This document shows positions 6,759-32,720 of a DNA stretch of 56,998 nucleotides, in pieces. Both the position numbers and the translations under genes were made by a program. The number at the start of each line of letters is the position of its first letter. Positions within the stretch are counted from its first letter, which is position 1. The stretch is from Alistipes sp. (lineage in GTDB: Bacteria > Bacteroidota > Bacteroidia > Bacteroidales > Rikenellaceae): assembly GCA_017465575.1 (NCBI GenBank), contig JAFTVX010000039.1, positions 1 to 56,998 of the forward strand. Reading direction: 5' to 3'. The notes below the pieces were generated by a model. The model was not told the DNA's origin and did not search any database. It saw only the letters and a program-made list of their open reading frames with translations.

Positions 6759-6904
6759 ACCTACCAGCCAGCACGACCCAATTTCTTGTCAGAGTGGTGC
6801 TAATGTGGCGCAGACACGAAAATGGCGGATGGGACATACTATGCGTATTTCCCATTCGCCATTTTGACCGAAGCGTCGCAGTAGCGCCGCTATCACAAGA
6901 AATT
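6759..6904 (+). ncRNA. Structured repeat element, copy 1 (candidate RNA)
   Basis: A 21-base leader (6759-6779, CTACCAGCCAGCACGACCC core) precedes a 125-base core (6780-6904). The core folds as one long interrupted hairpin: outer stem AATTTCTTGT/ACAAGAAATT, second stem AGTGGTGCTA/TAGCGCCGCT, short GGCGC/GCGTC helix, then apical AAAATGGCGGATGGGA with TCCCATTCGCCATTTT and ATAC/GTAT. T·G pairs occur where the minus strand would have A·C, which favours a + strand RNA. The core abuts copy 2 with a single base between them. Confidence 0.7.
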
Positions 6905-6905
6905 C

Positions 6906-7032
6906 AATTTGTCGTCAAAAGTCGTGAGATGTGGTGCCAAATGAAAGAGCCTCGGATGGGACATACTAAGATGTATTTCCCATTCGGGGCTCTAAGTTTG
7001 GTGCCGCAGATTGCGGCTTTTCACGGCAAATT
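6906..7032 (+). ncRNA. Structured repeat element, copy 2 (candidate RNA)
   Basis: A 127-base core directly following copy 1, without its own leader. Outer stem AATTTGTCGT/ACGGCAAATT, second stem AAAAGTCGTGA/TTGCGGCTTTT, GGTGCC/GGTGCC (via G·U pairs), apical GAGCCTCGGATGGGA with TCCCATTCGGGGCTC. Sequence differs from copy 1 at many paired positions while pairing is kept. Its last bases (7031-7032) are part of the kbl stop codon (TAA on the minus strand, 7031-7033). Confidence 0.7.
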
Positions 7033-8218
7033 ACTTAAGGACGCCGAGTTTCTTGCCAACTTTCACGAATGCCTCAACGCAACGGTCGAGCTGCTCGGTG
7101 GTGTGACCAGCAGATACCTGAACACGGATACGAGCCTGACCCTTAGGCACTACGGGGTAGTAGAAACCGGTTACGAATACGCCCTCGTTCTGAAGCTCTG
7201 CTGCGAAGTCCTGCGAAAGCTTAGCATCGTAGAGCATAACAGCGCAGATAGCAGATACGGTGGGCTTGATGTCGAAGCCTGCAGCAATCATCTTTGAGCG
7301 GAAGTGCTCAACATTTGCTACGAGCTGGTCGTGGAGCTTGTCGCTCTCCTCCAACATCTTGAACATCTCGATAGATGCACCAACCACTGCGGGGGGCAAT
7401 GAGTTAGAGAAGAGGTAGGGGCGTGAACGCTGGCGGAGCATATCGATAATCTCCTTGCGACCAGTGGTGAAGCCACCTACTGCGCCACCAAATGCCTTAC
7501 CGAGAGTACCGGTGAGGATATCCACCTTGCCACGAAGGTTGTAGAGCTCGGTGATACCGCGACCAGTCTTACCCAAGACACCAGCTGAGTGGCACTCGTC
7601 AACCATTACAAGAGCATCGTACTTCTCTGCCAACTCGCAAATCTTGTCGAGGGGAGCAGCGTTACCGTCCATAGAGAATACACCGTCGGTAACGATGATG
7701 CGGAAGCGCTGTGCCTGTGCCTGCTTCAAGCACTCCTCCAACTCTGCCATATCGGCATTAGCATAGCGGTAGCGCTGTGCCTTGCAGAGGCGAACACCGT
7801 CGATGATAGATGCGTGGTTCAAAGCGTCAGAGATGATAGCATCCTCGGCAGTGAACAAGGGCTCGAATACGCCACCATTAGCATCGAAGCAAGCAGCGTA
7901 GAGAATGGTATCCTCGGTGCCGAAGTAGTCGGCGATAGCCTTCTCAAGCTCCTTGTGCATATCCTGGCAGCCGCAGATGAAGCGTACTGACGACATACCG
8001 AAGCCACGGTCGTCCAAGGCCTTCTTTGCAGCATCGATAAGACGCTGGTTGTCAGAGAGACCGAGGTAGTTGTTAGCGCAGAAGTTCAATACGGGGCGGT
8101 TTGCTACATTGATCTCGGCACGCTGAGGTGACTCAATGATACGCTCTGTCTTGTACAAGCCGGCAGCCTTGATCTCTGCCAACTCATTCTGCAAATGCTG
8201 CTGAAATTTTCCGTACAT
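7031..8218 (-). CDS. kbl: Glycine C-acetyltransferase (2-amino-3-ketobutyrate CoA ligase)
   Basis: PLP enzyme of the alpha-oxoamine synthase family; converts 2-amino-3-ketobutyrate and CoA to glycine and acetyl-CoA in threonine breakdown. 395 residues from the ATG at 8216-8218, which begins MYGKFQQHL as in known Kbl; an in-frame start 69 bp upstream would add an unrelated tail. PLP-binding Lys241 lies in GTLGKAFGG; DECHSAG and GMSSVRFICG are typical of Kbl rather than of serine palmitoyltransferase or AONS. No threonine dehydrogenase is adjacent. A two-box promoter (8291-8322) lies upstream. Two structured elements follow directly at the stop codon in place of an ordinary terminator. Confidence 0.93.
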   Translation of the reverse strand: MYGKFQQHLQNELAEIKAAGLYKTERIIESPQRAEINVANRPVLNFCANNYLGLSDNQRLIDAAKKALDDRGFGMSSVRFICGCQDMHKELEKAIADYFGTEDTILYAACFDANGGVFEPLFTAEDAIISDALNHASIIDGVRLCKAQRYRYANADMAELEECLKQAQAQRFRIIVTDGVFSMDGNAAPLDKICELAEKYDALVMVDECHSAGVLGKTGRGITELYNLRGKVDILTGTLGKAFGGAVGGFTTGRKEIIDMLRQRSRPYLFSNSLPPAVVGASIEMFKMLEESDKLHDQLVANVEHFRSKMIAAGFDIKPTVSAICAVMLYDAKLSQDFAAELQNEGVFVTGFYYPVVPKGQARIRVQVSAGHTTEQLDRCVEAFVKVGKKLGVLK

Positions 8219-8290
8219 TGTAGTAAGTTTTAAGTTATTGTATTGATGAATCTTAGTCGAAGGACAAAGCGCTATTAGCGCTATCAACTA

Positions 8291-8322
8291 CAAAGATAGA
8301 AATTTTTTTCTCATTATGCAAA
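8291..8322 (-). promoter_or_regulatory. Promoter of kbl
   Basis: On the minus strand: TTTG (8319-8322), 20 bp, TATCTTTG (8291-8298), the Bacteroidetes housekeeping sigma pattern, about 70 bp before the start codon. Confidence 0.65.
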
Positions 8323-8358
8323 AAAAATTGGGGTGGGGTATGGTTGAGCGCCGTTGGA

Positions 8359-8465
8359 AGCGCAGTCAAAAGTGAATTTAGGGAGATTAAGGAAATTAGA
8401 GAAATTAGGGAGAGCGCTACCGACATTTATCCCTAAGCTCCTTACATTCCCTACCCTCACTAATT
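8359..8465. repeat. Dispersed repeat, copy A (GCGCAGTC...GCTAATT family)
   Basis: About 107 bp closely similar to 32469-32565, in the same orientation. It begins AGCGCAGTCAAAAG, contains TTTAGGGAGATTAAGG and AGGGAGAGCGCTA, and ends with TATCCCTAAGCTCCTTA. The first and last thirds are complementary (AGGGA units against TCCCT units), so it is itself a hairpin with repeat-built arms. Confidence 0.75.
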
Positions 8466-9058
8466 CATTAAAATCCTTATTATACCAAGGTTGAATTATG
8501 CGAATAAAGCAACATATTAACAACCCCAATTGGACTAAATCTTAATCATATCGTTATAACAGAGTTATATCAAAGTTGCATAAAGTGGTAACCACTGTCT
8601 AAATGAAGCCTACCTGACTCGATATCGATTAACGGCAATGTAACAGAGCTATATCTAAGTTAAATCAAGTTTGAAACTTCGCCTAAATGATGCTTACTTG
8701 GAACGATATCCATTAACAATGTTATAGGTGTACACTATCGGTGTTAAATAAAGCGATTAACTCTACAGTCTGATGATAAAAATATATCTCGATTCTACTA
8801 TCTTTGTTATAACGGCGTTATATCTATGATAATACGGTTAAGCAAATTAATTTTATATAAAGGTATACAAAGAACTATTACTAATAATGTTATAACAGCA
8901 TTATATCAAATTAAATAAACAATTGATACCACGCCAAATGATACCTACTTGGTTCATATTCAGTTATCTATGTTATAACGATGTTATATCAACGATAATT
9001 ATAAAAGCACATTGGTATAGTAGGAAGGGTGGGGAGATAATGACAGAAATTATCATTA

Positions 9059-9366
9059 GTGTCCCATAAAAATTAGGGACGAGTTAAACATTAAATAAAT
9101 TTTGCCCATTAGGGTCGGTAGGTTCTTTGTCATATTGAAATTTAGTTTTGTCGAAGAGGTCTTTTAAGGGCGTTGTACTTTGCAACGATGCGACGGAATT
9201 TGAAGCAATTAAGAAATTCGACTAACTGAACGAAAACATATTTGTCCTTATTCATTGCGGTCAATAGTTATATGCCTGCAAATTTATAATTTCAAATCGT
9301 TGCGCCAGAAAAATCTCTGCAACTAATTATATTTCAAAAAACACTCCCAAATTTTAATGGGATAGT
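9059..9366 (-). mobile_element. Internally deleted IS4-family element inside the satellite
   Basis: Imperfect terminal inverted repeats: GTCCCATAAAAATTAGGGAC at the left (9061-9080) and, reversed, ATCCCATTAAAATTTGGGAG at the right (about 9344-9363). Between them lie only the two ends of a minus-strand transposase gene. The phase of the satellite is kept across it if roughly 320 bp are removed, consistent with insertion into a repeat unit. Exact ends and any target duplication could not be fixed by eye. Confidence 0.7.
9084..9255 (-). pseudogene. Remnant of IS4-family (DUF4372-type) transposase
   Basis: The ATG at 9253-9255 opens a frame reading MNKDKYVFVQLVEFLNCFKF, the conserved start of DUF4372-type IS4 transposases of Bacteroidales. 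After about 37 codons the frame is lost, and in another frame the last codons read KDLFDKTKFQYDKEPTDPNG and then QNLFNV, stop (9084-9086), which matches the usual C-terminal end. The catalytic middle of several hundred codons is missing, so the element could move only if a related transposase acts in trans. Confidence 0.75.
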
Positions 9367-9961
9367 AGTGAAATATTACTAATAATGTTATATCAAGTTA
9401 AATTATGTAATTAAAACCATAACCTAATACTCTCTCATACTTCGACTTCTTCTGGCATTGATATAACAACGTTATATCAAGTTAAATTGTATAATTAAAA
9501 CTATATCCTAATTCTCCCTCTTGGGTCTATTTCCTTGGAGTTTGTTATAACGGTGTTATATTGTCGTTAAACCGAGTGATTAAAACTCACATAAATAACT
9601 CCGATTTGGCTCGTACTTAATTAACAGTGTTATATCGGTGTTATATCGAGAATAATATGATTTCATATGAAGCGATAAGTAATTTAATAGATAGCTTATA
9701 TATTAGAAGCTAAGACACCAATCGCTTATGGTACAACAATGATGTTATCGTCCACAAAAGTAATAATGGTACACAGACATAGTGGCAGAATTATCACAAA
9801 ATATAAGGAAATCGTTTGCTTATTTATTTAATATGTTATATCTTTGTTGTAACAATGTTAATATTATAGTACACTTAATTGGTTCGTAATAATTAGGTTG
9901 TAATCAAAGTGTTGGACTTTGTTAATATTCGGTATGATGGATAACTAAACACTATATAATT

Positions 9962-10177
9962 ATGAAAGTATCACAGATAAAGACAGTTAAGAGTTATGTG
10001 GGTACACTGCGCGAATTTAAGGTGGGAGAGACCAAATACTATAAGCTCGTTAATACCGACTACACAGGTTTCTATATGGCTCGCAAACGATTAGAAGACA
10101 ATAAGATAGCGCAGTTCTCATTTAATCGCCACGAAGAGGGCGGCGAAAGATATTTTGCGATTACAAGAGAGGAGTAG
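9962..10177 (+). CDS. Small basic protein of unknown function beside the satellite
   Basis: 71 residues, no signal peptide or membrane segment, with many Lys, Arg, Tyr and Glu (for example TKYYKLVNTDYTGFYMARKR and SFNRHEEGGERYFAITREE). The composition and predicted beta-rich, basic character resemble small nucleic-acid-binding or phage-type accessory proteins, but I do not recognise the family. It is the only gene in the 2 kb gap, reads away from the 84-bp satellite, and a structured element (10223-10371) follows 45 bp after its stop. The codon pattern looks coding, and the start is the only ATG; reality of the gene is likely, not certain. Confidence 0.65.
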   Translation: MKVSQIKTVKSYVGTLREFKVGETKYYKLVNTDYTGFYMARKRLEDNKIAQFSFNRHEEGGERYFAITREE

Positions 10178-10222
10178 ACTTCGATAAACATAGAATAGCC
10201 TATATAATAATTATATAATAAA

Positions 10223-10371
10223 CCACCTACCAATCTGCAAGACCCAATTTCTTGTCAGAAGGGGTCTAATTTGGTCTCGACACGAAGAAGCCCGGATGGG
10301 ACATACTGTGCGTATTTCCCATTCGGGCTTCTGACTGAGAGGTCGAAGTAGACCCCTTATCACAAGAAATT
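10223..10371 (+). ncRNA. Structured repeat element, copy 3 (candidate RNA)
   Basis: Leader 10223-10245 (CCACCTACCAATCTGCAAGA then CCC), core 10246-10371 (126 bases). Outer stem AATTTCTTGT/ACAAGAAATT, second stem AGGGGTCTA/TAGACCCCT, GGTCTC/GAGGTC with two G·U pairs, apical GAAGCCCGGATGGGA with TCCCATTCGGGCTTC, ATAC/GTAT. The core ends 7 bp before the comM stop codon on the opposite strand; the gap repeats TTTCTTG. Confidence 0.72.
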
Positions 10372-10378
10372 CAAGAAA

Positions 10379-11902
10379 TCACCTTCGGTCGAGGGTACGA
10401 TAACCGATAGCTTCGGAGATATGGGCGGGTTCGATGTTCTCCTTGCCTTCGAGGTCGGCGATGGTGCGGGCAACTTTGATGATGCGGTCGTAGGCGCGAG
10501 CAGAGAGGTCGAGGGCGGTCATCGCCTGCTCAAGCATCATCTGCGAGGGCTTATCCAAAGGTGCAAACCTACGAAGCATAGCACCAGTCATCTCGGCATT
10601 GGAGTGGATATCGAGACCCTCGAAGCGCTTGAGCTGTATGTTGCGTGCTGCAACAACTCGTTGGCGTATCTCGGCACTCGACTCCGAACGGCGTGTAGAG
10701 GATAGTTCGCCCACGGGGACGGGCACAACCTCGATATGTATGTCGATTCTATCCATCAGAGGGCCAGAGATATGCGCCTTGTAGCGATGCACCGCAGCTG
10801 CCGAGCAGGTACACTCCTTTGTAGGGTGGTTGTAGTAGCCACAGGGGCAGGGGTTCATCGATGCCACAAGCATAAAGTTGGCGGGATAGTCCACCGAATA
10901 TTTGGCACGCGAAATGGCGATATGGCGCTCCTCCAAGGGTTGGCGCAACACCTCGAGTACGCTACGCCCAAACTCGGGCATCTCGTCGAGGAACAGCACA
11001 CCATTATTTGCCAACGAGACCTCGCCAGGCTGTGGCGACTGACCACCACCGATAAGTGCCACCTGCGATGTTAGGTGGTGCGGAGCGCGGAAGGGGCGGT
11101 GCGACATCAGACCTCGGTGCGTGCCTATCTTGCCCGCCACGGAGTGTATCTTCGTGGTCTCCAACGCCTCCTCAAGGGTCATCGGCGGAAGGATTGTCGG
11201 CACACGGCGGGCAAGCATCGTCTTACCCGAACCGGGCGAGCCAATCATAATAACATTGTGACCACCCGCAGCTGCCACCTCCAAGGCACGCTTGACATAC
11301 TCCTGACCCTTGACATCGGCAAAGTCGTCGGAGAACTCGCATTCTGCCTCATCCTCAACCGTTAGGCAGTGCTCGGCAGGGGTATAGGGTGTATTGCCAT
11401 TGAGCATTCCGCAAATCTCGAGAAGCGACCCTACGCCAACGACATCGATGCCATCGACCACAGCGCCCTCGGCAACATTCTCCTCGGGCAGGAATACCCT
11501 TTTAAGACCCCTCTCGCGCGCCAGAGCAACGAGGGGCAGAGCACCCTTTACGGGGCGAAGTGTGCCGTTAAGCGAGAGCTCGCCCACGAACATAGAGTCC
11601 GAGAGCATATCGGTGCGTATCTGCTCCGTAACGGCAAGGATTCCAACGGCAATAGGCAGGTCGTACAACGAGCCCTCCTTGCGTAGGTCGGCGGGGGCGA
11701 GGTTGACGACTATCTTTTTGTGAATCATTCGATAGCCACTATTGCCAAAGGCCGCCAAGATACGCTGCTCGCTCTCCTTGATGGTGTTGTCCGGAAGACC
11801 GACAATATAGAGTCCGATACCACCGCCCGACATATTCACCTCGATGGTGACATCTCGTGCAGCGATACCGTCAATAGCGCCGCTATGTACTCTTACGAAC
11901 AT
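10379..11902 (-). CDS. comM: YifB/ComM-family Mg-chelatase-like AAA+ ATPase
   Basis: Cytoplasmic AAA+ helicase; ComM relatives drive branch migration during integration of transformed DNA. 507 residues: an N-terminal ChlI-like fold with VGLPDNTIKESEQR (about 34-47), Walker A GSPGSGKT (221-228), Walker B GVLFLDEMPEF and a C-terminal four-cysteine segment (CPCGYYNHPTKECTC) typical of YifB. Its ATG overlaps the stop of the SPOR-protein gene (TAATG, 11900-11904), implying translational coupling as the last gene of the operon starting at 14930. Downstream is a structured element rather than a simple terminator. Family call is secure; a role in DNA uptake here is inference. Confidence 0.94.
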   Translation of the reverse strand: MFVRVHSGAIDGIAARDVTIEVNMSGGGIGLYIVGLPDNTIKESEQRILAAFGNSGYRMIHKKIVVNLAPADLRKEGSLYDLPIAVGILAVTEQIRTDMLSDSMFVGELSLNGTLRPVKGALPLVALARERGLKRVFLPEENVAEGAVVDGIDVVGVGSLLEICGMLNGNTPYTPAEHCLTVEDEAECEFSDDFADVKGQEYVKRALEVAAAGGHNVIMIGSPGSGKTMLARRVPTILPPMTLEEALETTKIHSVAGKIGTHRGLMSHRPFRAPHHLTSQVALIGGGQSPQPGEVSLANNGVLFLDEMPEFGRSVLEVLRQPLEERHIAISRAKYSVDYPANFMLVASMNPCPCGYYNHPTKECTCSAAAVHRYKAHISGPLMDRIDIHIEVVPVPVGELSSTRRSESSAEIRQRVVAARNIQLKRFEGLDIHSNAEMTGAMLRRFAPLDKPSQMMLEQAMTALDLSARAYDRIIKVARTIADLEGKENIEPAHISEAIGYRTLDRR

Positions 11903-12420
11903 TAGTGGGTAGGTATTACCGCCGTGGTGGGATGTGCAACACTATCTACAACCTCCTCGACCTCTTTGCGGACACTCTTAAGCTGGTTGAGCGTGATATC
12001 CTCGCGCTTGGGGAATGCCTTGGGGTAGTCGCCATTGATAGAGTTCATAAGGATGATTGCCTCCTCCATCGATAGGCAGTCGCCCACCGAGACCTTGAAA
12101 TAGGGGCTCTCGTAAACAAGGTAGGCGTTGATGCCTGGGTACTTCGAGCGGAAGTCTACCAAGACACTCTGCGCCTTGTCGCCAGCATACTGGCCATTGT
12201 TGAAGTAGATGACCACACGGTAGCCACTCACCTTCGAGGGCTTCACCTTGCTGTCGACAGCGCTAACAGCGGCTGCCGCTGCGCTCTCCTCATTAACGGT
12301 AACGACATTGCCGCTTACATCATGCTTGGCAAGGCGATTGCGCTGTGAAGCGACACTCTGTGCCGAGGCAACACCGACCGAAAGAAGGAGTATAAATAGT
12401 GTGAAAACAAATTTTTTCAT
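11902..12420 (-). CDS. Exported SPOR-domain-like protein
   Basis: 172 residues with a cleavable signal peptide (KKFVFTLFILLLSVGVASAQ). After an alanine-rich linker comes a module of about 75 residues, GYRVVIYFNNGQYAGDKAQ through YFKVSVGDCLSMEEAIILMN, with the beta-alpha-beta spacing of SPOR domains, which bind denuded peptidoglycan glycan strands. A short charged tail follows. It probably acts in the periplasm in envelope or division-site organisation. It is 3 bp after the preceding exported-protein gene and overlaps comM by TAATG. Domain assignment rests on pattern, not on an alignment. Confidence 0.75.
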   Translation of the reverse strand: MKKFVFTLFILLLSVGVASAQSVASQRNRLAKHDVSGNVVTVNEESAAAAAVSAVDSKVKPSKVSGYRVVIYFNNGQYAGDKAQSVLVDFRSKYPGINAYLVYESPYFKVSVGDCLSMEEAIILMNSINGDYPKAFPKREDITLNQLKSVRKEVEEVVDSVAHPTTAVIPTH

Positions 12421-12423
12421 ATT

Positions 12424-12933
12424 CTATAACTTACTAATTAGATCCTCGATAACGCTGTTAGATATTGCGAATTTATCCAAAAATTTCGAGATAGCAATAT
12501 TTTCGGCAGAAATAGTCCTCTTATATACGGATATTCCGCCACGCAGATTGTAGCTAATCGTAAGTCCCGCATCGCGCTTAAGCACCAAGCGCAACATCTT
12601 CAACAGAGCAAACGAGCTGCGCGACTCAAAGCGCAGAGGCACCAAGACTGTCTCGGTGCGGTTACGGCGCAACACCACCTTATCGCGCAACGAGATAACG
12701 CCCAGCGACTTGCCATTATCGAAAATCTCGACATTGGCGAACTTCGCAACCAAGCGCAGGTGAGTGTCGTTGGTCATCTCGACCCAGACATTTGCGCCAG
12801 TCGAGGATAGGTGCGTAACACGCTCGATGCGCTCAATCTTGATTTTCGAGGCGATAGAGCCGACGATGCCCGCTTGTGCCGTAGGAGCAACAAGCATAAA
12901 CGCCATGAAAAGTATGATATATAATCGCTTCAT
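12424..12933 (-). CDS. Exported protein, possibly LEA14-like fold
   Basis: 169 residues with a signal peptide (KRLYIILFMAFMLVAPTAQA). The mature part has alternating beta segments: a conserved-looking VWVEMTNDTHLRLVAKFANV, DNGKSLGVISLRDKVVLRR and ETVLVPLRFESRS. This resembles the single Ig-like 'water stress/LEA14' domain found in Bacteroidetes periplasmic proteins, but similarity is weak by eye. It lies 26 bp after menG and 3 bp before the SPOR gene, in the same operon, so a joint envelope role of the two small proteins is plausible inference. Confidence 0.7.
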   Translation of the reverse strand: MKRLYIILFMAFMLVAPTAQAGIVGSIASKIKIERIERVTHLSSTGANVWVEMTNDTHLRLVAKFANVEIFDNGKSLGVISLRDKVVLRRNRTETVLVPLRFESRSSFALLKMLRLVLKRDAGLTISYNLRGGISVYKRTISAENIAISKFLDKFAISNSVIEDLISKL

Positions 12934-12959
12934 ATTCTATATATTAAACGCACGAAAGG

Positions 12960-13679: not shown

Positions 13680-13688
13680 ACTGTGTAA

Positions 13689-14930: not shown

Positions 14931-14937
14931 AACGCTA

Positions 14938-14945
14938 CAAAGGTA
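14938..14945 (-). promoter_or_regulatory. Probable -7 element of the permease-menG-comM operon
   Basis: TACCTTTG on the minus strand, only 7 bp before the chosen ATG. Upstream lies GAAAGAGCAAAGATG-type repeat; TTTC, not TTTG, sits at the ideal 19 bp distance. Confidence 0.5.
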
Positions 14946-15000
14946 GCAAAAAAAGAGCAAAGATGAAAGAGCAATTAGAAATGAGCAATAGTTGCAGGCG

Positions 15001-15150
15001 TTCGCCTGCGAGCTAAAGCTCTAAGGGGTAAAAGGGTTCTAAGGGGTATAAGAGGCCAACGGACGAGCGCTAATGAAACTCTGTCTTAAAAGCGCAACCC
15101 CTTGTACCCCTCCGACCCCTCTGACCCCTCTGCGATAGCAGGCGCTCCGT
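15001..15150. repeat. Hairpin with repeat-built arms (AGGGGT units)
   Basis: The left arm carries CTAAGGGGT and AAAGGGTT units (about 15020-15055), the right arm ACCCCT units (about 15100-15132); outside them GCGTTCGCCTGCGAGC faces GCGATAGCAGGCGCTCC. The block directly precedes structured element copy 4, just as similar hairpins precede copies 1 and 5. Confidence 0.6.
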
Positions 15151-15162
15151 GGAGCGCAATAT

Positions 15163-15314
15163 ACCACCTTCCAGCCAGCACTACCCAATTTGTCGTCAGA
15201 AGGGGTTAGCTGTGGCCTCGATAAAGAAATTGCCCTGGATGGATAGTACTTGATGTACATTCCATTCAGGGCAATGATTGAGAGGTCGCAGATGACCCCT
15301 TATCACGACAAATT
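15163..15314 (+). ncRNA. Structured repeat element, copy 4 (candidate RNA)
   Basis: Leader 15163-15186 (ACCACCTTCCAGCCAGCACT then ACCC), core 15187-15314 (128 bases). Outer stem AATTTGTCGT/ACGACAAATT, second stem AAGGGGTTA/TGACCCCTT with one T·G, GGCCTC/GAGGTC, apical TTGCCCTGGATGGA with TTCCATTCAGGGCAA, GTAC/GTAC near the loop where other copies have ATAC/GTAT. The last two bases are shared with the stop codon of the AraC-family gene (15313-15315). Confidence 0.72.
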
Positions 15315-16170
15315 ATGCTTGATTTTCTTTTTGGGCACGCGCCTCCTTACGAATCTTGAGCGGTGTCTTCTTTAGATACTTGCGGCAGAAGAGGGCGAAG
15401 TGGCCGTGGTTGGTGAAGCTGTACATCTTGATGATGCTCTTCAACGGCACATTGGTCTCGGTGAGGAGGTGCTCAATTTCGACGATGCGCTGCTTCTGCA
15501 TCCAGCTATAGGGGGTGTCGCCAAACTCCTGCTTGAACATATTGTTGAAGTGCTGAATGCTGAAACCACAGATATCAGCAAGCTCCTCAACGGTCTTAAC
15601 ACGGGGTGCATTGTTCTTGACAAGCGATGCGAATGACTGGTTGCGGTCGAAGAGGTTGTAGAAGGTGCGAAGCTGAATCTGGGGTGTGAAGAAGAACTTG
15701 AAGATTACGAACATCTCCTGAATCTTTGCGGCGTGGAGATGGTTGCACTTCATATCGTTCTGCAAGTAGAAACGCACCGAGTTGAGCAACAACTCAAGGG
15801 GCTCGTTGAAGGCCACCTGAGTAAACTTGTAGTTAATCTTCTTGATTTTGCCTACGATACTATTAAAAGGTATCATATCGCACGCAGCACCCGCTGTGAT
15901 AAAGTGGGCACGCACAATCTCCATATCGGTGAGTGCTGTTACCTCGTAGCGGAAGGCACGGAAGCAGAAGACGAAGTGACCCTCACGCACGGCGTAGTCA
16001 CGGCGCTCCTCGGAGGTAATCTCGAAGCTACCCGACATAAGGAAGAGGATGTTGTTCTTGTCGCCACGCTCAAGGATGAGTTTCTCGCCCGCCTTAAAGG
16101 TCTGATATACAAAGCCTGCTTCGGGCTCAATTGTATAGGAATGACAAGTTGCTGGACACTGGTTCGACAT
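15313..16170 (-). CDS. AraC-family transcriptional regulator
   Basis: 285 residues. N-terminal cupin-like sensing domain (about 15-110: LILERGDKNNILFLMSGSFE...EGHFVFCF), then a C-terminal AraC DNA-binding domain (about 190-280) with the two helix-turn-helix units: VEELADICGFSIQHFNNMFK and PLKSIIKMYSFTNHGHFALF followed by CRKYLKKTPLKIRK. The target and ligand cannot be read from sequence; it stands alone between a structured element at its stop codon and a long leader. A two-box promoter lies at 16260-16290, giving an 80-90 nt 5' leader. Confidence 0.9.
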   Translation of the reverse strand: MSNQCPATCHSYTIEPEAGFVYQTFKAGEKLILERGDKNNILFLMSGSFEITSEERRDYAVREGHFVFCFRAFRYEVTALTDMEIVRAHFITAGAACDMIPFNSIVGKIKKINYKFTQVAFNEPLELLLNSVRFYLQNDMKCNHLHAAKIQEMFVIFKFFFTPQIQLRTFYNLFDRNQSFASLVKNNAPRVKTVEELADICGFSIQHFNNMFKQEFGDTPYSWMQKQRIVEIEHLLTETNVPLKSIIKMYSFTNHGHFALFCRKYLKKTPLKIRKEARAQKENQA

Positions 16171-16259
16171 CTTGGTAGTAGTTTTTGGGTTAGTATTTTA
16201 GGTTAATTATTTCTTCAAATTGGTTAGGGTGTACACACATAATATCGTTTCACACCATA

Positions 16260-16290
16260 CAAATATACGCAAAAAAAATGAATGTGCAAC
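16260..16290 (-). promoter_or_regulatory. Promoter of the AraC-family gene
   Basis: Minus strand: GTTG (16287-16290), 19 bp, TATATTTG (16260-16267). The -33 differs from TTTG by one base. Confidence 0.5.
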
Positions 16291-16317
16291 TATTTTTTAT
16301 GAATAAATTACAAAAGT

Positions 16318-16506
16318 TGTTAGTTTTTAGTTATAAGTTGTTAGTTGTGGGAGGGAGACGATAGGAAAAAAGAGGAAAGATGAAAGAGCAAAGAGATTAT
16401 TTAAGACCATAGGACAAGTAAGACGATAAGACGATAGGAGAAAAATAATCCTAAGGTCCTAAGGTCTTAATGGTCTTAAGGTCTAAAAACTAAAAACTAA
16501 AAACTA
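16318..16506. repeat. Nested inverted repeat between AraC and DUF4435 genes
   Basis: Outer arms are TTAGTTTTTAG-type (16318-16350) against CTAAAAACTAAAAACTAA (16484-16506). Inner arms are TTAAGACCATAGGACAAGTA and AAGACGATAAGACGATAGG (16401-16438) against CCTAAGGTCCTAAGGTCTTA and ATGGTCTTAAGG (16450-16482). A GAAAGAGCAAAGAG unit lies between the outer and inner left arms. Confidence 0.65.
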
Positions 16507-23115: not shown

Positions 23116-23148
23116 TTTCCTGCTCGCTCGAAAAAAAAGCGAGAAAAT

Positions 23149-23179
23149 TTTGCAAAAATTGATTTTTTTTGTACTTTTG
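23149..23179 (+). promoter_or_regulatory. Promoter of lipA-lipB(-recJ)
   Basis: TTTG (23149-23152), exactly 19 bp, TACTTTTG (23172-23179), about 28 bp before the chosen lipA start. An in-frame ATG at 23169 overlaps the -7 element and cannot be on the mRNA, which decides the start at 23208. Confidence 0.8.
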
Positions 23180-23207
23180 CATCAATTGGAAAAAAGTGAA
23201 CTTAGAA

Positions 23208-24775: not shown

Positions 24776-24783
24776 TACAAATT

Positions 24784-26544: not shown

Positions 26545-26560
26545 TCTCTGGGGCGAAAAC

Positions 26561-26602
26561 AAAGAGGAGATGGCTAATTAGTTTAGCCATCTCCCCTTTT
26601 TG
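26561..26602. terminator. Bidirectional intrinsic terminator between recJ and dnaB
   Basis: GGAGATGGCTAA (26566-26577) pairs with TTTAGCCATCTCC (26582-26594), flanked by A-rich and T-rich runs. Confidence 0.85.
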
Positions 26603-26615
26603 TTATAGTCTGCGG

Positions 26616-28184
26616 TTAGAATGGTGCGATGTCGAACTCCGAGGGCACACCACTCATGCCACCCTGAGGTGCTGAGCCCATGGGTGGGAAGTTGTTGCCC
26701 GACGATGAGAAGTCGTCGTAGCTCTCGGTCTGTTGGTTGGGCATTCCCGAGGCTGCACCCGAGGTGATAGCCGCCATAACCGAAGAGTCGGCATCGGCAA
26801 ACTTCGCCTGCTCCTTGATAAAGCGTAGGGGCACATCCGTAACCTCGCCATTACGGTGCTTGGCGATGATAATCTCGGCCATACCTGCCGTAGACATGCC
26901 ATTCTCATCGGTGGTAAGTCCGTAGTACTCAGGACGGTGGATAAATGCCACAACATCGGCATCCTGCTCAATAGCACCCGACTCACGAAGGTCCGATAGC
27001 TGGGGTCGCTTCGAGCCACCACGGTTCTCCACATTACGGCTAAGCTGCGATAGGGCGATGATAGGGACATTCAACTCCTTGGCGATAGCCTTCAGCGTAC
27101 GCGAGATAAGCGATACCTCCTGCTCACGGTTACCGCGGGTCTCGGGTGTCGAGGCGGTCATAAGCTGTAGGTAGTCGATGATGATAAGCTTGATGTCGTG
27201 CTGAGTTTTAAGACGACGAGCCTTCGAGCGGAACTCATATACCGAAAGGGCGGGCGTATCGTCGATATATAGTGGCGAACGGCCAAGCTCCACGGTCTGG
27301 CTCTCGAGGTGCGCCCACTCCTCGGGTTTGAGGTTACCTGTGCGCAAATCCTTGGAGTTGAGCTGCGTCTCGGCTACGATAAGTCGGTTCATAAGCTGCA
27401 CCGACGACATCTCGAGCGAGAAGAAGGCCACGGGTGTCTTATGCTCAACGGCCATATTGCGTGCCATGGTAAGCACAAAGGCGGTCTTACCCATTGAGGG
27501 TCGTGCTGCAATGATGATAAGGTCTGAGGGCTGCCAACCGAGTGTGATGCTGTCGATATCGGTAAATCCCGAACGCACACCGTTGTACTCGCCAGCGGTC
27601 TTTGACGCCTCCTCAATCTGCGCCAACGCCTTGCGCAAGATATCCTGTGCCGACTGCACCGAGCGCTTCACATTACCCTCCGAAACACGGAAAATCTCCT
27701 GCTCGGCAAAGCCGATAAGCTCCGTAACATCGACCTCGTCGTCGTACGAACGGCGCTCAATCTCGGTCGCCGAACGGATAAGCTCACGCTGCACATACTT
27801 CTGTGCGATAATCTTGGCGTGGAACTCGATATGCGCTGCCGAGGCTACTCGCTGTGTGAGCTGTGCCAAATATGCCGCACCACCCACCTTCGTTAGCTGA
27901 CGGTGTGATTTCAGACACTCGGTAACGGTGTAGAGGTCGATAGCCTTCATCTCGAACGATAGCTCCTGGATAGCCTGGAAGATTATGCGGTGCTCCTCTG
28001 TGTAGAATGTCTCGGGCTTGATGTACTCCTGCACATCGATGATTGCATCTTTCTCGAGCATCAACGCACCCAGCACAGCCTGCTCCAATTCGACAGCCTG
28101 TGGCGGTACAGTACCCTCTATTTCAGAGAGTTGGCGATATGCCTCGCTATTGTTCTGCGACGAACGATTGTATTGCTTTGCCAT
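26616..28184 (-). CDS. dnaB: Replicative DNA helicase DnaB
   Basis: Hexameric 5'-3' helicase at the replication fork. 522 residues from the ATG at 28182-28184 (AKQYNRSSQNN); a further in-frame ATG 57 bp upstream lies before the probable -7 TATTTTTG (minus strand, 28206-28213) and is not used. N-terminal primase-interacting domain (PPQAVELEQAVLGALML), RecA-like C-terminal domain with Walker A ARPSMGKT, Walker B IIIDYLQLM and SLISRTLKAIAKELN. The last 50 residues are a Gly/Ser/Pro-rich tail. No intein. Downstream of lysC on the same strand. Confidence 0.96.
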   Translation of the reverse strand: MAKQYNRSSQNNSEAYRQLSEIEGTVPPQAVELEQAVLGALMLEKDAIIDVQEYIKPETFYTEEHRIIFQAIQELSFEMKAIDLYTVTECLKSHRQLTKVGGAAYLAQLTQRVASAAHIEFHAKIIAQKYVQRELIRSATEIERRSYDDEVDVTELIGFAEQEIFRVSEGNVKRSVQSAQDILRKALAQIEEASKTAGEYNGVRSGFTDIDSITLGWQPSDLIIIAARPSMGKTAFVLTMARNMAVEHKTPVAFFSLEMSSVQLMNRLIVAETQLNSKDLRTGNLKPEEWAHLESQTVELGRSPLYIDDTPALSVYEFRSKARRLKTQHDIKLIIIDYLQLMTASTPETRGNREQEVSLISRTLKAIAKELNVPIIALSQLSRNVENRGGSKRPQLSDLRESGAIEQDADVVAFIHRPEYYGLTTDENGMSTAGMAEIIIAKHRNGEVTDVPLRFIKEQAKFADADSSVMAAITSGAASGMPNQQTESYDDFSSSGNNFPPMGSAPQGGMSGVPSEFDIAPF

Positions 28185-28308
28185 AGTATCTACTTTTACG
28201 GATTGCAAAAATAGGAATATTTTTCTATGACTTGTTGACAAAGCCCCTCGACTTATGATAACTTACTAACACGCAATGTTAATAGTTTCGTTCGATTGGG
28301 CGATTGCT

Positions 28309-29562
28309 CTATTTTGTACGCACTAAGCGCAACGAGTGTGGCGTTGTCTGCTTGATGATGATGCGGTCGTCGAAGGCGTAGCGGTGGTAGAGCTCGTCGG
28401 TGTAGTAACGGATGGTTACCATCTCGACATCGTCGCGCTTCTCGACATCGAAGCCTATGCCCTCCAGCTCAGAGATAGCATCGTCGATATGCCACGAAGC
28501 ATCGACGGCCATAAAGAGGTCGACAGCAGAGTTATGCACAAGGTTGATGCGGATGCGGTGGCTATCGAAGGTGGTAAATACCGTGGCGAACTTCTCCTCC
28601 AAGACAAACGAGAGGTCGCGCGAGTGGAGCTTGAGCAGCACCTGGTTGCTCTTCAATATCATAATCGGCTCATATACACGCTCGACATCGCCCGTGATAA
28701 CCGAGCCTTGGGCATTTTTATTGCCGAAGGGGCGGACATAGAGTGGTATGTTCTTCTGCTGCAAGGGCTTGATGGTCTTGGGGTGGATAATCTGCGCACC
28801 GCTATATGCCATCTCTATGGTATCCATATAGTTAAGGCGCTCAATCTTGCGGGCATCGGGGAAGATTTTGGGGTCGGCATTGAGGATGCCGTCGACATCC
28901 TTCCACACGCTCATCGACTCAGCATCGAGGACATTGGCAACGATAGCTGCCGAGTAGTCGGAGCCCTCACGGCCAAGGGTTGTTGTTGTGCCATCGGGGG
29001 CACCGCCAATAAAGCCCTGACCAACGAATACCGATACCTCGCTACCCGCAATCTCACGTTTTAGGCGCACCTCGGTAGCCTCCAAATTGACATTTGCATC
29101 CTTGTGGCGCTGCTCCGTAAGAAAGGCACGGCGCATATCCACCCAGCGGTTCTCGACACCGTGGCCACGCAGGTAGTTAGATATGATGGTTGTCGAGATA
29201 AGCTCGCCAAAGGCAACGATGGTGTCGTACCAAAGTTCGGCATCCGAGGGTCGGTAGATGGTGTTGCGCACGGTATTACGCAGCTGCTCGAAGAGGGTAT
29301 CCACCTGCTCGATGGTGATATCGGCACCCATAAGGTCGTCGATAATGCCACGGTGGTAGGCATACGAGAGGTCGATGCGCTCCATCGCCAACTTCTCGTC
29401 CCCCACCTGCATCGCCTGAAATACACCTTCGAGGGCATTTGTTGTCTTGCCCATCGCCGAGACGATGATAAAAAGCTCCTTTTCGTCCTTTACAATATCG
29501 AGTAGATTGCGTACGCCAGCAGCATCTTTGACCGAGGCACCGCCAAACTTATAGACTTTCAT
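28309..29562 (-). CDS. lysC: Aspartate kinase (monofunctional)
   Basis: Phosphorylates aspartate, the first step to lysine, methionine and threonine; dapD, also in this window, acts later in the lysine branch. 417 residues: kinase domain beginning VYKFGGASVKDAAG, central FVGQGFIGGAPDGTTTTLGR and SDYSAAIVANVLDAESMSVW; the C-terminal third carries two ACT-type regulatory segments (VLLKLHSRDLSFV, SHRIRINLVHNSAVDLFMAV). No homoserine dehydrogenase domain follows, so it is not the bifunctional ThrA. Feedback regulation by lysine is inference from the family. Confidence 0.93.
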   Translation of the reverse strand: MKVYKFGGASVKDAAGVRNLLDIVKDEKELFIIVSAMGKTTNALEGVFQAMQVGDEKLAMERIDLSYAYHRGIIDDLMGADITIEQVDTLFEQLRNTVRNTIYRPSDAELWYDTIVAFGELISTTIISNYLRGHGVENRWVDMRRAFLTEQRHKDANVNLEATEVRLKREIAGSEVSVFVGQGFIGGAPDGTTTTLGREGSDYSAAIVANVLDAESMSVWKDVDGILNADPKIFPDARKIERLNYMDTIEMAYSGAQIIHPKTIKPLQQKNIPLYVRPFGNKNAQGSVITGDVERVYEPIMILKSNQVLLKLHSRDLSFVLEEKFATVFTTFDSHRIRINLVHNSAVDLFMAVDASWHIDDAISELEGIGFDVEKRDDVEMVTIRYYTDELYHRYAFDDRIIIKQTTPHSLRLVRTK

Positions 29563-29658
29563 AGTTTGCGTTGTTTAGTTTTCACTCACAAAGTTATTAA
29601 AAATTCTTCAAAACGCCCTATATCCCGAGCCTATAATTTTGTGCGGAGCATAAAAAAA

Positions 29659-29682
29659 CTGACCAAGAGCGTTCTTGGTCAG
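29659..29682 (-). terminator. Intrinsic terminator of the helical-repeat gene
   Basis: CTGACCAAGA pairs with TCTTGGTCAG around four bases; the minus strand continues into seven T. Confidence 0.88.
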
Positions 29683-29708
29683 CATATTAGCGATTGTTGC
29701 GGGTGGGT

Positions 29709-30470
29709 CTATTTCAGCCTCTCGGCATCTTCGCGCAGTGCCTGAGCATCTATCTCCTGAAGGCGCTGCATCTCCCTCATCGCAAAGCCCTTCTCGTTGT
29801 CAGCGAGAGTCATGAACCAATCGCTATACTCCTTCTGCTTGGCAGCGACCTCCTCCTGCTCACCACGCGCCGCGTGGAAACCTATCTCGAAGTAGAACTT
29901 TGCAACAACCTCACGAAGCTCCTCTGCCCTATCTTCTGCTACCTCGCCCTGATATCGCGCTGCGGTAATCTCGTAGACATACTCATTGAAGTGCTCTACA
30001 TCATCCAAACTAAGAGTTTGCACCCACTCGGTGTAACTCTGCTGAACACGCTCAAAGGTAGCCTTGTCGCCTCTCTGTTGAGCATCATATAGCTGCTCCA
30101 AGAACATATTTATCATCTGGCGCACACCATCACGACCCAACGACTCACGCTCGTTAATCGAGGCGTAATATGCCAAGAATTGAGCCGTGTACTCGTTAAG
30201 GTAGTCGAGTTCCTCCTCGCTAAGCGACATAATCCACTCGGTAAGTTGAGCCTCTGACTTCTCGAAAAGTGCAGTATCACCCTTAGCCTCAGCAATAGTC
30301 AGCTCATCGTAATATTCATTAAAGCGCTTCTCAATCTCCGCCTTGCGCTTCTCGCTCAAACCCTCGCTCTGCTCAACCTTCGCACGCTTGCCTCTCTTAG
30401 GCTTTGCCGCCTCGACAGCCACAGGCGCCAGAAGCATCAGCACCAAAATCGCACATAGAAATCTTCTCAT
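29709..30470 (-). CDS. Exported protein of three helical repeats
   Basis: 253 residues. Signal peptide (RRFLCAILVLMLLAPVAVEA), basic linker KPKRGKRAK, then three copies of a roughly 65-70 residue alpha-helical unit aligned on AKGDTALFEKSEAQLTEWIM, QRGDKATFERVQQSYTEWVQ and ARGEQEEVAAKQKEYSDWFM, each followed by a SL.....L/F.NEY-like turn. The units are degenerate but in register, so the protein arose by internal duplication. No family recognised. It lies 12 bp after the Bro-N gene, hence co-transcribed, and ends at a strong terminator. Periplasmic location is predicted from the signal; function unknown. Confidence 0.78.
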   Translation of the reverse strand: MRRFLCAILVLMLLAPVAVEAAKPKRGKRAKVEQSEGLSEKRKAEIEKRFNEYYDELTIAEAKGDTALFEKSEAQLTEWIMSLSEEELDYLNEYTAQFLAYYASINERESLGRDGVRQMINMFLEQLYDAQQRGDKATFERVQQSYTEWVQTLSLDDVEHFNEYVYEITAARYQGEVAEDRAEELREVVAKFYFEIGFHAARGEQEEVAAKQKEYSDWFMTLADNEKGFAMREMQRLQEIDAQALREDAERLK

Positions 30471-30482
30471 AGTTGTAAGGTT

Positions 30483-31316
30483 TTATTCGTTATTATCCTC
30501 ACCTGGCAGCAGATAGTCGCTCGCCTTCTCCTTCGATATAACGCTTCTGCCGAGCTGATGCTCCAGCTGCACACGCGCAGCCTTAGCTACGCTACCACCC
30601 TTCTGAGCAACCTTAGCACTCTCCCTAAAATTCTGAGGATTTTTCTGCTTGGATAGCTCAGTGGTGGCTGTCTCTGCAAGCATATTGAGGGCAAGCTCAA
30701 GGTTTGTCATATTATCGCGCAGATTCTCCTTGTGTAACCCCTTATATTGCTTATACTCCTTAACACGGAAGCCACTCCACTGCTTTGTTATTATGTCGGT
30801 GAGTGTTGCATATTGTACACCCTCCTCTACGCCCGTGCGTTTCCACTCATCGGTTAGCTCCTTGCGCACCTCCATAGTCTTGATACGCTGGTTTATCCAC
30901 TGCTCCGAGTAGCCCAACCTACGATAGTCTGTCATCGCCTGTGTTATCGACAGCTCGGGGTCTTGCATCTGGTCAATGCGGTGTGCTGCCACCTCCGCCA
31001 TCCACTGCTTAAATGGCTCTGCCTTATGCGAGGGGATAGACTGAATGATACGGAGGATGCCTCGCATATCCGCACAATTTAATCTTTGTCTACCTCCCCG
31101 AGTTATGACTGAAAGGGGGGTGACAATTTGTCCCCACCCTTCGGCAAGAACCGTATCCCTCTTTTTTAACTTCTTAATGTAATCTGTTGGATTTACACTA
31201 TCCGTAATAGCTCCAATCACATCTACTACTACAAAGTACCACTCCTCGGTATTTGTATCCCATACGGTGCGCACCTTACGCTCCTCGAATAGTTGCAATG
31301 CCTCTCTCTTTGTCAT
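30483..31316 (-). CDS. Bro-N domain protein, DinD/antirepressor-like
   Basis: 277 residues from the ATG at 31314-31316. N-terminal Bro-N fold (VRTVWDTNTEEWYFVVVDVI, then PTDYIKKLKKRD), the module of phage antirepressors; the C-terminal half (SITQAMTDYRRLGYSEQWIN...AETATTELSKQ.NPQNFRES) matches the long Bro/DinD-like proteins common on Bacteroidetes chromosomes. No phage genes are nearby, so it seems domesticated. The ATG 90 bp upstream precedes the promoter (31334-31364) and is rejected. It forms an operon with the helical-repeat gene. Its regulatory target, if any, is unknown. Confidence 0.85.
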   Translation of the reverse strand: MTKREALQLFEERKVRTVWDTNTEEWYFVVVDVIGAITDSVNPTDYIKKLKKRDTVLAEGWGQIVTPLSVITRGGRQRLNCADMRGILRIIQSIPSHKAEPFKQWMAEVAAHRIDQMQDPELSITQAMTDYRRLGYSEQWINQRIKTMEVRKELTDEWKRTGVEEGVQYATLTDIITKQWSGFRVKEYKQYKGLHKENLRDNMTNLELALNMLAETATTELSKQKNPQNFRESAKVAQKGGSVAKAARVQLEHQLGRSVISKEKASDYLLPGEDNNE

Positions 31317-31333
31317 ATGCCATTCATTTATTA

Positions 31334-31364
31334 CAAAGGTACAAAAAAAAGATAAAAGAGCAAA
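31334..31364 (-). promoter_or_regulatory. Promoter of the Bro-N operon
   Basis: Minus strand: TTTG (31361-31364), exactly 19 bp, TACCTTTG (31334-31341), 17 bp before the start codon. The -33 is supplied by the outermost AGAGCAAAG module of the adjacent nested repeat. Confidence 0.75.
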
Positions 31365-31520
31365 GTTCAAAGAGCAAAGAGAGTTTTTAGATATTAGCAA
31401 CGACAAACTTCTTATAGTGGGTTAAAATGAGTTAAGATGAGTTAAAATGGGTTACTATGTTTTATTAGAGGATTTTTTCTAACAACTAGAAACTAACAAC
31501 TAAAAAACTTTTGCTCCTTG
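31354..31520. repeat. Nested inverted repeat between divergent promoters
   Basis: Order inward from the left: AGAGCAAAGTTCAAAGAGCA units, TTTTTAGATATTAG, then four ten-base units GGGTTAAAAT, GAGTTAAGAT, GAGTTAAAAT, GGGTTACTAT (31420-31459), then CTAACAACTAGAAACTAACA units and CTTTTGCTCCTTGATC. The right half repeats the order of 1138-1250. It fills the space between the Bro-N and dapD promoters. Confidence 0.65.
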
Positions 31521-31547
31521 ATCTTTCATCTTTTTTTAGTACCTTTG
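31517..31547 (+). promoter_or_regulatory. Promoter of dapD
   Basis: CTTG (31517-31520), 19 bp, TACCTTTG (31540-31547), about 30 bp before the start codon. Confidence 0.65.
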
Positions 31548-31576
31548 AGCAGCGAAAATTTTAAAACCGACAAGAT

Positions 31577-32401
31577 ATGTTTCAGAACGAGAAAAAGATA
31601 ATAGAGGAGGCGTGGGAGAAGCGTGAGTTGCTTGCAACCGACGAGGTGCGTGATGCTATCCGCCGTGTTGTCGAGGCTGTAGACAAGGGCAAGTTGCGCT
31701 GTGCCGAGCCTATCGACTTGGAGCGTAGCGAGTGGCAGGTGAACGAGTGGGTCAAGAAGGCGATTATTATGTACTTCCCCATTCAGACTATGCGCACGAT
31801 GACGGCTGGCGAGTTGGAGTGGTACGACAAGATGGAGCTTAAGCGTGGCTACGAGGAGCTGGGTGTAAGAGTTGTACCCTCGGCGGTGGCTCGCTATGGC
31901 GCATATATCGCCCCTGGTGCTATCCTTATGCCGTCGTATGTCAATATCGGCGCCTATGTCGACTCGGGCACTATGGTCGACACTTGGGCTACGGTAGGCT
32001 CGTGCGCTCAGATTGGCAAGAATGTACACCTCTCGGGTGGCGTGGGCATTGGTGGCGTCTTGGAGCCTGTGCAGGCATCGCCCGTGATTATCGAGGACAA
32101 CTGCTTTATCGGCTCGCGCTCTATCGTTGTCGAGGGTGCGCATATTTGCCGTGAGGCCGTTCTCGGCTCTAATACGGTGATTACCGGCTCGACACATATT
32201 ATCGATGTTACGGGCAGCGAGCCCAAGGAGTATAAGGGCTATGTTCCCGCCCGCTCGGTAGTTGTCTCGGGCACCTATAATAAGAGGTTCCCCGCAGGCG
32301 AGTATGGTGTGCAGTGTGCACTTATCATCGGCCACCGCAAGGAGTCTACCGATAAGAAGACCTCGCTGAATGATGCACTGCGCGACTTCGCGATATCGTA
32401 G
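31577..32401 (+). CDS. dapD: Tetrahydrodipicolinate N-succinyltransferase
   Basis: Succinyl-CoA dependent step of the succinylase route to meso-diaminopimelate and lysine. 274 residues: N-terminal helical domain, then a left-handed beta-helix of hexapeptide repeats (PGAILMPSYVNIGAYVDSGT, TVGSCAQIGKNVHLSGGVGI and GGVLEPVQASPVIIEDNCFI), and PAGEYGVQCALIIGHRK at the end. VDTWATVGSCAQIG is diagnostic of DapD. The use of the succinylase route, not the DAP-aminotransferase route, is implied by its presence. A single gene with its own promoter. Confidence 0.95.
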   Translation: MFQNEKKIIEEAWEKRELLATDEVRDAIRRVVEAVDKGKLRCAEPIDLERSEWQVNEWVKKAIIMYFPIQTMRTMTAGELEWYDKMELKRGYEELGVRVVPSAVARYGAYIAPGAILMPSYVNIGAYVDSGTMVDTWATVGSCAQIGKNVHLSGGVGIGGVLEPVQASPVIIEDNCFIGSRSIVVEGAHICREAVLGSNTVITGSTHIIDVTGSEPKEYKGYVPARSVVVSGTYNKRFPAGEYGVQCALIIGHRKESTDKKTSLNDALRDFAIS

Positions 32402-32468
32402 GCGCAACTAATTAGTAATGAGCAGCAGGAGCAGGCTTGGGCTTGCTCTTTTTTTTGCGTAGTCGACA

Positions 32469-32565
32469 AGCGCAGTCAAAAGGGAATTTAGGGAGATTAG
32501 GGAATCTAGAGAAGTTAGGGAGAGCGCTATCGACTTTTATCCCTAAACTCCTTAAACTCGCTAAT
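32469..32565. repeat. Dispersed repeat, copy B
   Basis: Similar along its length to 8359-8465: AGCGCAGTCAAAAGGGAATT start, TTAGGGAGATTAGGGA, GAGAGCGCTATCGAC, TATCCCTAAACTCCTTAAA end. Hairpin with repeat-built arms, directly left of structured element copy 5. Confidence 0.75.
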
Positions 32566-32567
32566 AC

Positions 32568-32720
32568 ACCACCTTGCAGTTAGCACTCAGTCAATTTATT
32601 GTCAAAAGGAGTTAGATGTGGCCTCGATAAAGAAATTGCCCCAGATGGGACATACTTGTTGTATTTCCCATTTGGGGCAATGATTGAGAGGTCGCAGATG
32701 ACCCCTTTTCACAATAAATT
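32568..32720 (+). ncRNA. Structured repeat element, copy 5 (candidate RNA)
   Basis: Leader 32568-32592 (CACCACCTTGCAGTTAGCAC then TCAGTC), core 32593-32720 (128 bases). Outer stem AATTTATTGT/ACAATAAATT, second stem AAAAGGAGTTA/TGACCCCTTTT (one A·C mismatch, one T·G), GGCCTC/GAGGTC, apical TTGCCCCAGATGGGA with TCCCATTTGGGGCAA, ATAC/GTAT. The final bases overlap the ferredoxin stop codon (32719-32721). Confidence 0.72.

Follow-up and report, generated by a model that had tools for sequence, protein, structure and literature searches.

The described systems closest to the hairpin-forming repeat reported here, five copies of which lie in a 56,998-nucleotide stretch of Alistipes sp. (assembly GCA_017465575.1, contig JAFTVX010000039.1, positions 1 to 56,998; hereafter the window), are integron attC sites, miniature inverted-repeat transposable elements (MITEs), repetitive extragenic palindromes (REPs) and several hairpin repeats of organelles and of Bacteroidetes. 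attC sites are located at gene ends, and the Vibrio cholerae repeats (VCR) are similar in length to the Alistipes hairpins. Bacteroidales MITEs, for example in Porphyromonas gingivalis, are short, non-coding, inverted-repeat and intergenic. As outlined in PMC2727003, attC sites including the VCR conserve the fold of one strand and keep unpaired bases while their sequence varies. REPs, in the summary given by PMC3733652, measure 20-40 bp and carry a GTAG or CGTC tag; like the present hairpins, REPs and REPINs with their RAYT (Y1) transposases are dispersed intergenic palindromes of high copy number. Hairpin-forming repeats of sponge mitochondria (outlined in PMC2800124) and palindromes of Volvox organelles (outlined in PMC2670323) likewise invade intergenic DNA and differ between close taxa, and for the latter the authors prefer no single mechanism of spread. 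Among the structured-RNA candidates reported in PMC8040213 are the palindromic HMP2_4205 (132 bp), HMP2_1065 and HMP2_1032, found mostly or entirely in Bacteroidetes; Alistipes is mentioned once in that paper, in connection with a 49-bp candidate lying upstream of ribosomal protein L20.

Unlike attC sites, the Alistipes hairpins lack AAC/GTT boxes and an integrase and are scattered at ordinary chromosomal genes rather than assembled in a cassette array. They are at least three times longer than REP or REPIN palindromes, show no GTAG enrichment, come without a Y1 transposase and vary at their ends; in contrast to the Bacteroidales MITEs, they have no conserved terminal repeat, no target duplication was found and their fold is strand-specific. 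They are set apart from the sponge and Volvox repeats by being bacterial, by standing at stop codons, by a nearly fixed length and by a measured single-strand bias. The HMP2 candidates share with them the palindromic form, the phylum and in one case a similar length, but are presented in PMC8040213 as predicted terminators near TPR, RuvA and TonB genes, and the distinction is one of description only. Among the papers listed in a literature survey, none names such a hairpin family in Alistipes or Rikenellaceae. The pattern described below suggests a mobile or regulatory hairpin of a kind not described before. With slightly less than even confidence, we tentatively lean towards a dispersed hairpin that is conserved in shape and whose spread or exchange takes place in folded single-stranded form, probably at replication forks, and we rank a locally transcribed RNA lower.

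Family size and conservation of the fold

The window is contig C24 of the source genome (G000), which was compared with two close relatives (G184 and G130); the three assemblies are 94% (G000), 86% (G184) and 94% (G130) complete. The initial annotation had described a five-copy family. All five copies are present, with cores of 125, 127, 126, 128 and 128 bases, as are the variants it quoted for the outer stem, the apical stem and the loop closure (ATAC/GTAT versus GTAC/GTAC), and the folding energies of the copies, computed with the leader for those that have one, range from -70.4 to -79.9 kcal/mol. Five is a small sample, however, as the genome holds about 147 copies: a search of the 1.95 Mb assembly with a covariance model (R1) gave 149 matches at E ≤ 0.001, of which two duplicate others on the opposite strand, leaving at least 147 distinct copies, a lower bound with the best 150 of 640 candidates scored. 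The model was built from 61 units, which match it by construction. BLAST with copies 1 and 2, for which 40 of 110 first-look candidates were scored, yielded at least 52 genomic matches, and the best of these other than self had an E value of 3.9e-62. About 1% of the source genome consists of hairpin copies. Hairpins lie within about 350 bases of an end in its contigs C12, C20, C28, C33, C38 and C42, as expected of a repeat that breaks short-read assembly.

Model matches were obtained in 74 of 200 Rikenellaceae genomes, source genome included (64 of the same genus and 10 from three other genera), with 0 to at least 17 matches per genome. A signature pattern was found in at least 106 stretches, all labelled Alistipes sp., Rikenellaceae bacterium or uncultured Alistipes. 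Plasmids and phages contained no match to copies 1 and 2, and viral contigs none to two apex patterns. In line with the initial annotation, which knew of no family with this shape, no Rfam family matched the hairpins, the only match in the window at gathering score being a tRNA gene at 53547-53619; at 6740-7050, which spans the first two copies, three matches were returned at E ≤ 10, the best with E 0.18 and a score of 18.8 bits where the cut-off is 93.

Units are about 126 bases long (122-136 among full-length model matches) and occur singly or in runs of two or three, with a spacing of mostly 0-4 bases. Regular expressions recovered 81 runs of one, 15 of two and two of three units in the source genome, counts that underestimate longer runs. 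In many runs a leader resembling CCACCTNCCAGCCAGCAC stands, as judged by eye, ahead of the first unit. On the plus strand of the window the outer stem reads TTTNNN-GTCA ... TCAC-NNNAAA, the triplet varying on both sides together; inside it lie a second and a third stem, a large internal loop and an apical stem with a loop closed by UAC/GUA.

The covariation noted in the initial annotation is upheld by an alignment of 61 units, in which both sides had changed in 31 of 44 pairs. Paired cells amounted to 94.8%, compared with 75.3% after shuffling and 41.0-49.2% when partners were slid by 1-3 columns, and several compensated pair types occur at columns 6-8 of the outer stem. Base pairing of the hairpin is thus strongly supported. 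Departures from pairing are also kept: a C.C mismatch in the outer stem, at columns 11/125, is retained in 58 of 61 units, and columns 23-24/112-113 are mostly purines with changing partners (GA/GA in 23 units, AA/GT in 20, AA/GG in 8, GG/AA in 4 and others in 6). A wobble pair is the commonest state at columns 27/109 (U.G in 52 of 60) and 53/83 (G.U in 49 of 60), which suggests RNA. One unit, L016:6935-7061, is a chimera whose arms come from different hairpin types; its interior matches poorly and its outer stem pairs.

Folding energies of the two strands were compared for 230 distinct units picked by a regular expression requiring the outer stem, the GTCA/TCAC motif and a fold below -35 kcal/mol on the given strand, a choice that leaves out badly decayed copies; orientation was fixed by the GTCA/TCAC motif before energies were compared. 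With RNA parameters, the leader-sense strand folded better than its complement in 225 of the 230 units (117/117 from the source genome and 108/113 from named loci), by a mean of 17 and 15 kcal/mol, respectively. DNA parameters gave the same preference in 224 (113/117 and 111/113). Leader-sense folds contained 1125 G.T pairs and complement folds 82, the latter corresponding to A.C in leader sense. The bias persisted after thinning by alignment score (81/83 at 0.85 and 20/20 at 0.70), and the leader sense was also the better-folding one in 28 of 29 divergent units from G101, G038, G044, G082, G070 and G092, representing three genera. Control palindromes situated just past the leader showed no such bias, the leader sense being more stable in 15 of 42. 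Because template-switch correction and gene conversion favor neither strand, we take folding of the leader-sense single strand to have been selected; this test is stronger than covariation, since template-switch correction or conversion of a contiguous interior could also yield covariation. Both lines of evidence support the earlier claim of selection on structure, here that of a single strand.

The strand kept foldable is antisense to the abutted gene. The initial annotation had proposed a candidate RNA, a term that does not apply in its usual sense to a repeat at gene ends with an antisense folded strand, a left-hand gene pointing either way and no excess of promoters. The Bacteroidetes -7 motif (consensus TANNTTTG) was present upstream on the folded strand 9 times in 94 arrays, at chance level against 8.3 in shuffled sequence, other promoter types not being covered. 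On the other strand the motif was enriched (37 matches), and when a TTG was required 17-24 bases before it, none remained on the folded strand vs 19 on the other.

Gene ends, close genomes and replication sense

Of the 98 arrays of the source genome, 89 are close to where an open frame of 60 codons or more terminates, close meaning from 60 bases before to 40 after the first base of the hairpin in gene sense; seven arrays have no such end and two lack the flank. In 63 of the 89, the first base of the stop codon immediately precedes the hairpin (T, then AATTT), and the same position was found at named loci in 47 of 72 arrays, nine more being without such a frame and four without flank. Among the 93 source-genome arrays with an assignable right-hand gene, 87 have the abutted gene and the leader sense on opposite strands. 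The leader-side gene may have either direction (41 vs 48, n = 89). The family is intergenic, with 2 of 183 arrays inside an open frame of at least 200 codons. No T run was noticed after the hairpin, in either sense, among the arrays inspected by eye. The preference for stop codons is an observed fact.

Orthologues of the gene at the first window array (kbl) were surveyed at 30 loci, one of them without a readable gene end. An element-like start, identified by a loose pattern, stands at the stop codon in 17 of the 29 readable orthologues, with various stems, and in 4 of the 12 orthologues that lack the element the next gene follows directly, as judged by eye.

At comparable sites in close genomes the place persists while stems, apices or the number of units differ. 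Of 67 regions chosen in the analysis, 60 were included. At the kbl end, G000 carries units A and B, G130 an A-like and a C unit, and G184 the C unit only. The yifB end has a hairpin in all three genomes, with stems shared by G000 and G184 and different in G130. For the hairpin at 15187-15314, G184 shows a single-base difference and G130 an exchanged apical block. A further sample comprised 10 arrays in two stretches of 19.9 kb, three of them comparable across the three genomes. All three genomes have a hairpin at the same gene end at L273:10788 (minus strand), where G130 differs in the apex and G000 in part of one arm; at L274:10740 (plus strand) all are filled, G184 agreeing with G130 and G000 being different; at L274:13454 (minus strand) all are again filled, G000 agreeing with G130 and G184 carrying two other units. 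At L273:6132 (minus strand) the interior differs in G130 (anchor 95%), and the G184 anchor, at 76%, was not counted. In these four arrays the gene-adjacent unit retains the outer triplet CTT/AAG. Five of the remaining six had no anchor in the stretches of the relatives, and L274:13090 (plus strand) is followed by another unit. Near 16.4 kb of the window, a hairpin is present in G184 alone and in neither G000 nor G130.

Orientation was compared with GC skew in two further genomes. In G101, a single contig of 3.79 Mb, the leader sense lies on the strand of negative GC skew at 24 of 24 distinct places among the matches listed, compared with 73 of 152 open reading frames on the G-rich strand (Fisher, 1.6e-7). 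Each place was assigned from the average of its three nearest skew samples with no ambiguity limit, this average being only -0.006 at place 1104860, and the mostly negative region holds two positive samples (0.026 at 2.88 Mb and 0.004 at 3.64 Mb). In G038, orientation follows GC skew at 34 of 36 places, with four ambiguous (40 among the matches listed); the unit at C4:100047-100171 (minus strand) is not in this count, and its inclusion gives 34 of 37. Units within one array are not independent, and grouping by hand into arrays gave 18 of 20. If GC skew is read in the usual way, the folded strand corresponds in sense to the nascent lagging strand.

Window copies and neighboring repeats

The five window copies all have the plus strand as the foldable one. 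The first two form a tandem pair: a type A unit at 6780-6904 (-70.4 kcal/mol with its leader; R1 score 121.1 bits), preceded by a leader at 6759-6779 of the kind seen by eye before the first hairpin of many arrays, and a gene-proximal type B unit at 6906-7032 (-79.9 kcal/mol; 131.4 bits), which, being the second hairpin of the pair, lacks a leader. The adjoining minus-strand gene at 7031-8287, from its translation resembling 2-amino-3-ketobutyrate CoA ligase and presumably kbl, has a TAA stop that overlaps the hairpin end, beginning one base before the hairpin in gene sense. A leader at 10223-10245 precedes the unit at 10246-10371 (134.4 bits), for which G184 and G130 have a hairpin at the same gene end; the minus-strand gene at 10379-11902, which we take to be yifB-like, ends with a TGA seven bases before the hairpin, and the junction carries part of the outer arm a second time (CAAGAAATC). 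The unit at 15187-15314 (122.9 bits, leader at 15163-15186) is overlapped at its end by the TAA of a minus-strand gene, presumably for an AraC-type regulator, at 15313-16170, and that at 32593-32720 (124.5 bits, leader at 32568-32592) by the TAA of a minus-strand gene at 32719-32892, whose 57-residue product we assume to be ferredoxin-like.

Long palindromes of a second kind, made of imperfect units of about 9 bases, are found between leader and next gene, in the window at about 6640-6745, 14985-15150 and 32458-32567, and also to the left of most arrays inspected. Their classes are CTCACTAAA, GGTCTTAAT, CCCCTTAGA, CCCTATTGA and TTTTAACTCA, and palindromes of this type were the controls in the strand comparison above. 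Those at kbl and at the AraC-like gene have undergone wholesale replacement between close genomes; the latter, at approximately 14985-15150, is of the CCCCTTAGA class, and unrelated sequence takes its place in G184 and G130. The idea that left palindrome and hairpin form one element was dropped, as the left part is replaced independently and has no strand bias. An intergenic palindrome of the GACGATAGG/CCTAAGGTC class lies at about 16330-16500 of the window with no 126-base hairpin, and G184 has a hairpin there instead. A stretch of about 190 bases at L274:10490-10712, outside the hairpin unit, has many further matches in G130 and G184, and simple repeats such as AGCAAAGAGCAAAGAG and TTAGTTGTTAGTTATTAG recur intergenically (e.g. 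in L009, in L028 and at window 16320).

Weighing the explanations

Under the explanation we lean to, the active form would be the leader-sense strand alone, folded as RNA or as single-stranded DNA, and the family would spread or be renewed when the folded strand is copied or exchanged into gene ends. The most plausible site for this would be the replication fork, where the outer arms could act as short homology; host replication and recombination functions may suffice without a dedicated enzyme. A bolder form, which we regard as unlikely, is a mobile element recognized by shape alone, with the sense of the nascent lagging strand and taken into gene ends at the fork with no dedicated transposase. 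The outer arms would then be the homology and the interior would be exchanged, such that sites stay while hairpins turn over, and the element, if this were true, would be a natural counterpart of oligonucleotide recombineering.

Several observations weigh against spread or exchange of a folded strand at the fork. No movement was observed, the case at 16.4 kb opposes one genome to two and may reflect loss, and ordinary gene conversion among the copies could account for the exchanged stems. The sole G092 unit breaks the strand rule, and the common wobble pairs look more RNA-like than DNA-like, yet no local promoter was found. Orientation in the source genome is weakly regional: among 119 arrays grouped by hand, 170 of 301 same-contig pairs agree, compared with a shuffled mean of 150, and 68 of 2000 shuffles reached as high. 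Flank skew in leader sense is weak there (left -0.014, p 0.06; right -0.021) and confounded with the coding strand, and with so weak an effect in the source genome the link to the fork rests on the two other genomes. A canonical terminator was detected in 5 of the 12 kbl orthologues without the element and in 2 of the 17 with it, and its greater frequency where the element is absent would also fit a role in place at gene ends. Finally, no Y1 transposase, reverse transcriptase or integron integrase accompanies the hairpins, other transposase families not having been searched; RVT_1 was detected in 41 of 121 genus genomes, with none in G000 and with neither G130 nor G184 among the 41.

The main rival is a cis-acting RNA working in place, and the data do not settle between it and the fork-linked exchange that we favor. 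Transcription from the leader side, by read-through from a convergent gene or by stray antisense initiation, would fold at the gene border and stop or be cut before becoming antisense. We consider this unlikely, while acknowledging that selection acts on the antisense strand of the gene and the hairpin lies at the gene border, that places persist between close genomes, that several positions most often hold a wobble pair and that element and terminator tend toward mutual exclusion in the kbl orthologues. Such an RNA is harder to reconcile with the chance-level promoter count on the folded strand, with the 48 of 89 left-hand neighbors that point away, with the apparent lack of a T run after the hairpin and with match numbers that vary widely among congeners, and it leaves the orientation by GC skew unexplained. 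A folded single-stranded recombination site akin to attC and used by a Xer-type recombinase would share the logic of structure over sequence and the use of a single strand (as outlined in PMC2727003), and the preference for one strand is maintained with DNA parameters. Like attC sites, moreover, the hairpin follows directly after a stop codon. We nevertheless judge this explanation improbable, as no unit among the 230 has RYYYAAC/GTTRRRY ends, whichever sense is read, no genome among the 121 has an integron integrase that passes the curated TIGR02249 cut-off (weaker matches, to tyrosine recombinases, occur in all 121 and in all 14 controls), and the compared stretches are collinear with G184 and G130 and have not moved as cassettes.

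Identity as a MITE or a REP, both raised in the initial annotation, was not borne out, and movement by a DNA transposase encoded elsewhere appears distinctly improbable. The hairpins are indeed short, palindromic, dispersed, intergenic and genus-wide, but their ends vary with compensation instead of being conserved for a transposase, and terminal inverted repeats are accordingly not conserved. Matches of 5-8 bases that could represent target duplications were not above re-paired controls across 168 arrays, the left boundary being uncertain. A unit of about 126 bases is not a REP; the Y1 transposase (PF01797) was found in 1 of 121 genus genomes, not the source genome, and in 5 of 14 control genomes, and only 12 of 168 arrays have the GTAG tag no more than 12 bases beyond a foot, a count made with no control and not covering CGTC. 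Least probable, in our view, is that these are old palindromes whose arms stay matched through template switching and gene conversion, with no selection on folding. Conversion of a contiguous interior would swap both arms together, the chimera with mismatched arms exists, and exact doubling of the outer arm at the junction occurs in 2 of 183 arrays (0.13 expected). The 1125 G.T vs 82 A.C pairs on one strand, the retained C.C mismatch and the purine-purine loops with changing partners are all unaccounted for by this process, and the neighboring palindromes have no strand bias. The doubled outer arm was also considered as an insertion footprint and set aside, two cases being too few to carry a mechanism.

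Beyond the five copies originally reported, the family comprises about 147 copies, overlap with stop codons, a one-strand bias and exchange of stems between species; its members adjoin dozens of stop codons, yet have no match in Rfam or in the surveyed literature. Such repeats can break assemblies and can pass for riboregulators in comparative screens. Its sequence turns over while the fold of one strand, the length, the mismatches and the place are kept, which implies recognition by shape, and the family is thus a comparative system for finding what recognizes the hairpin.

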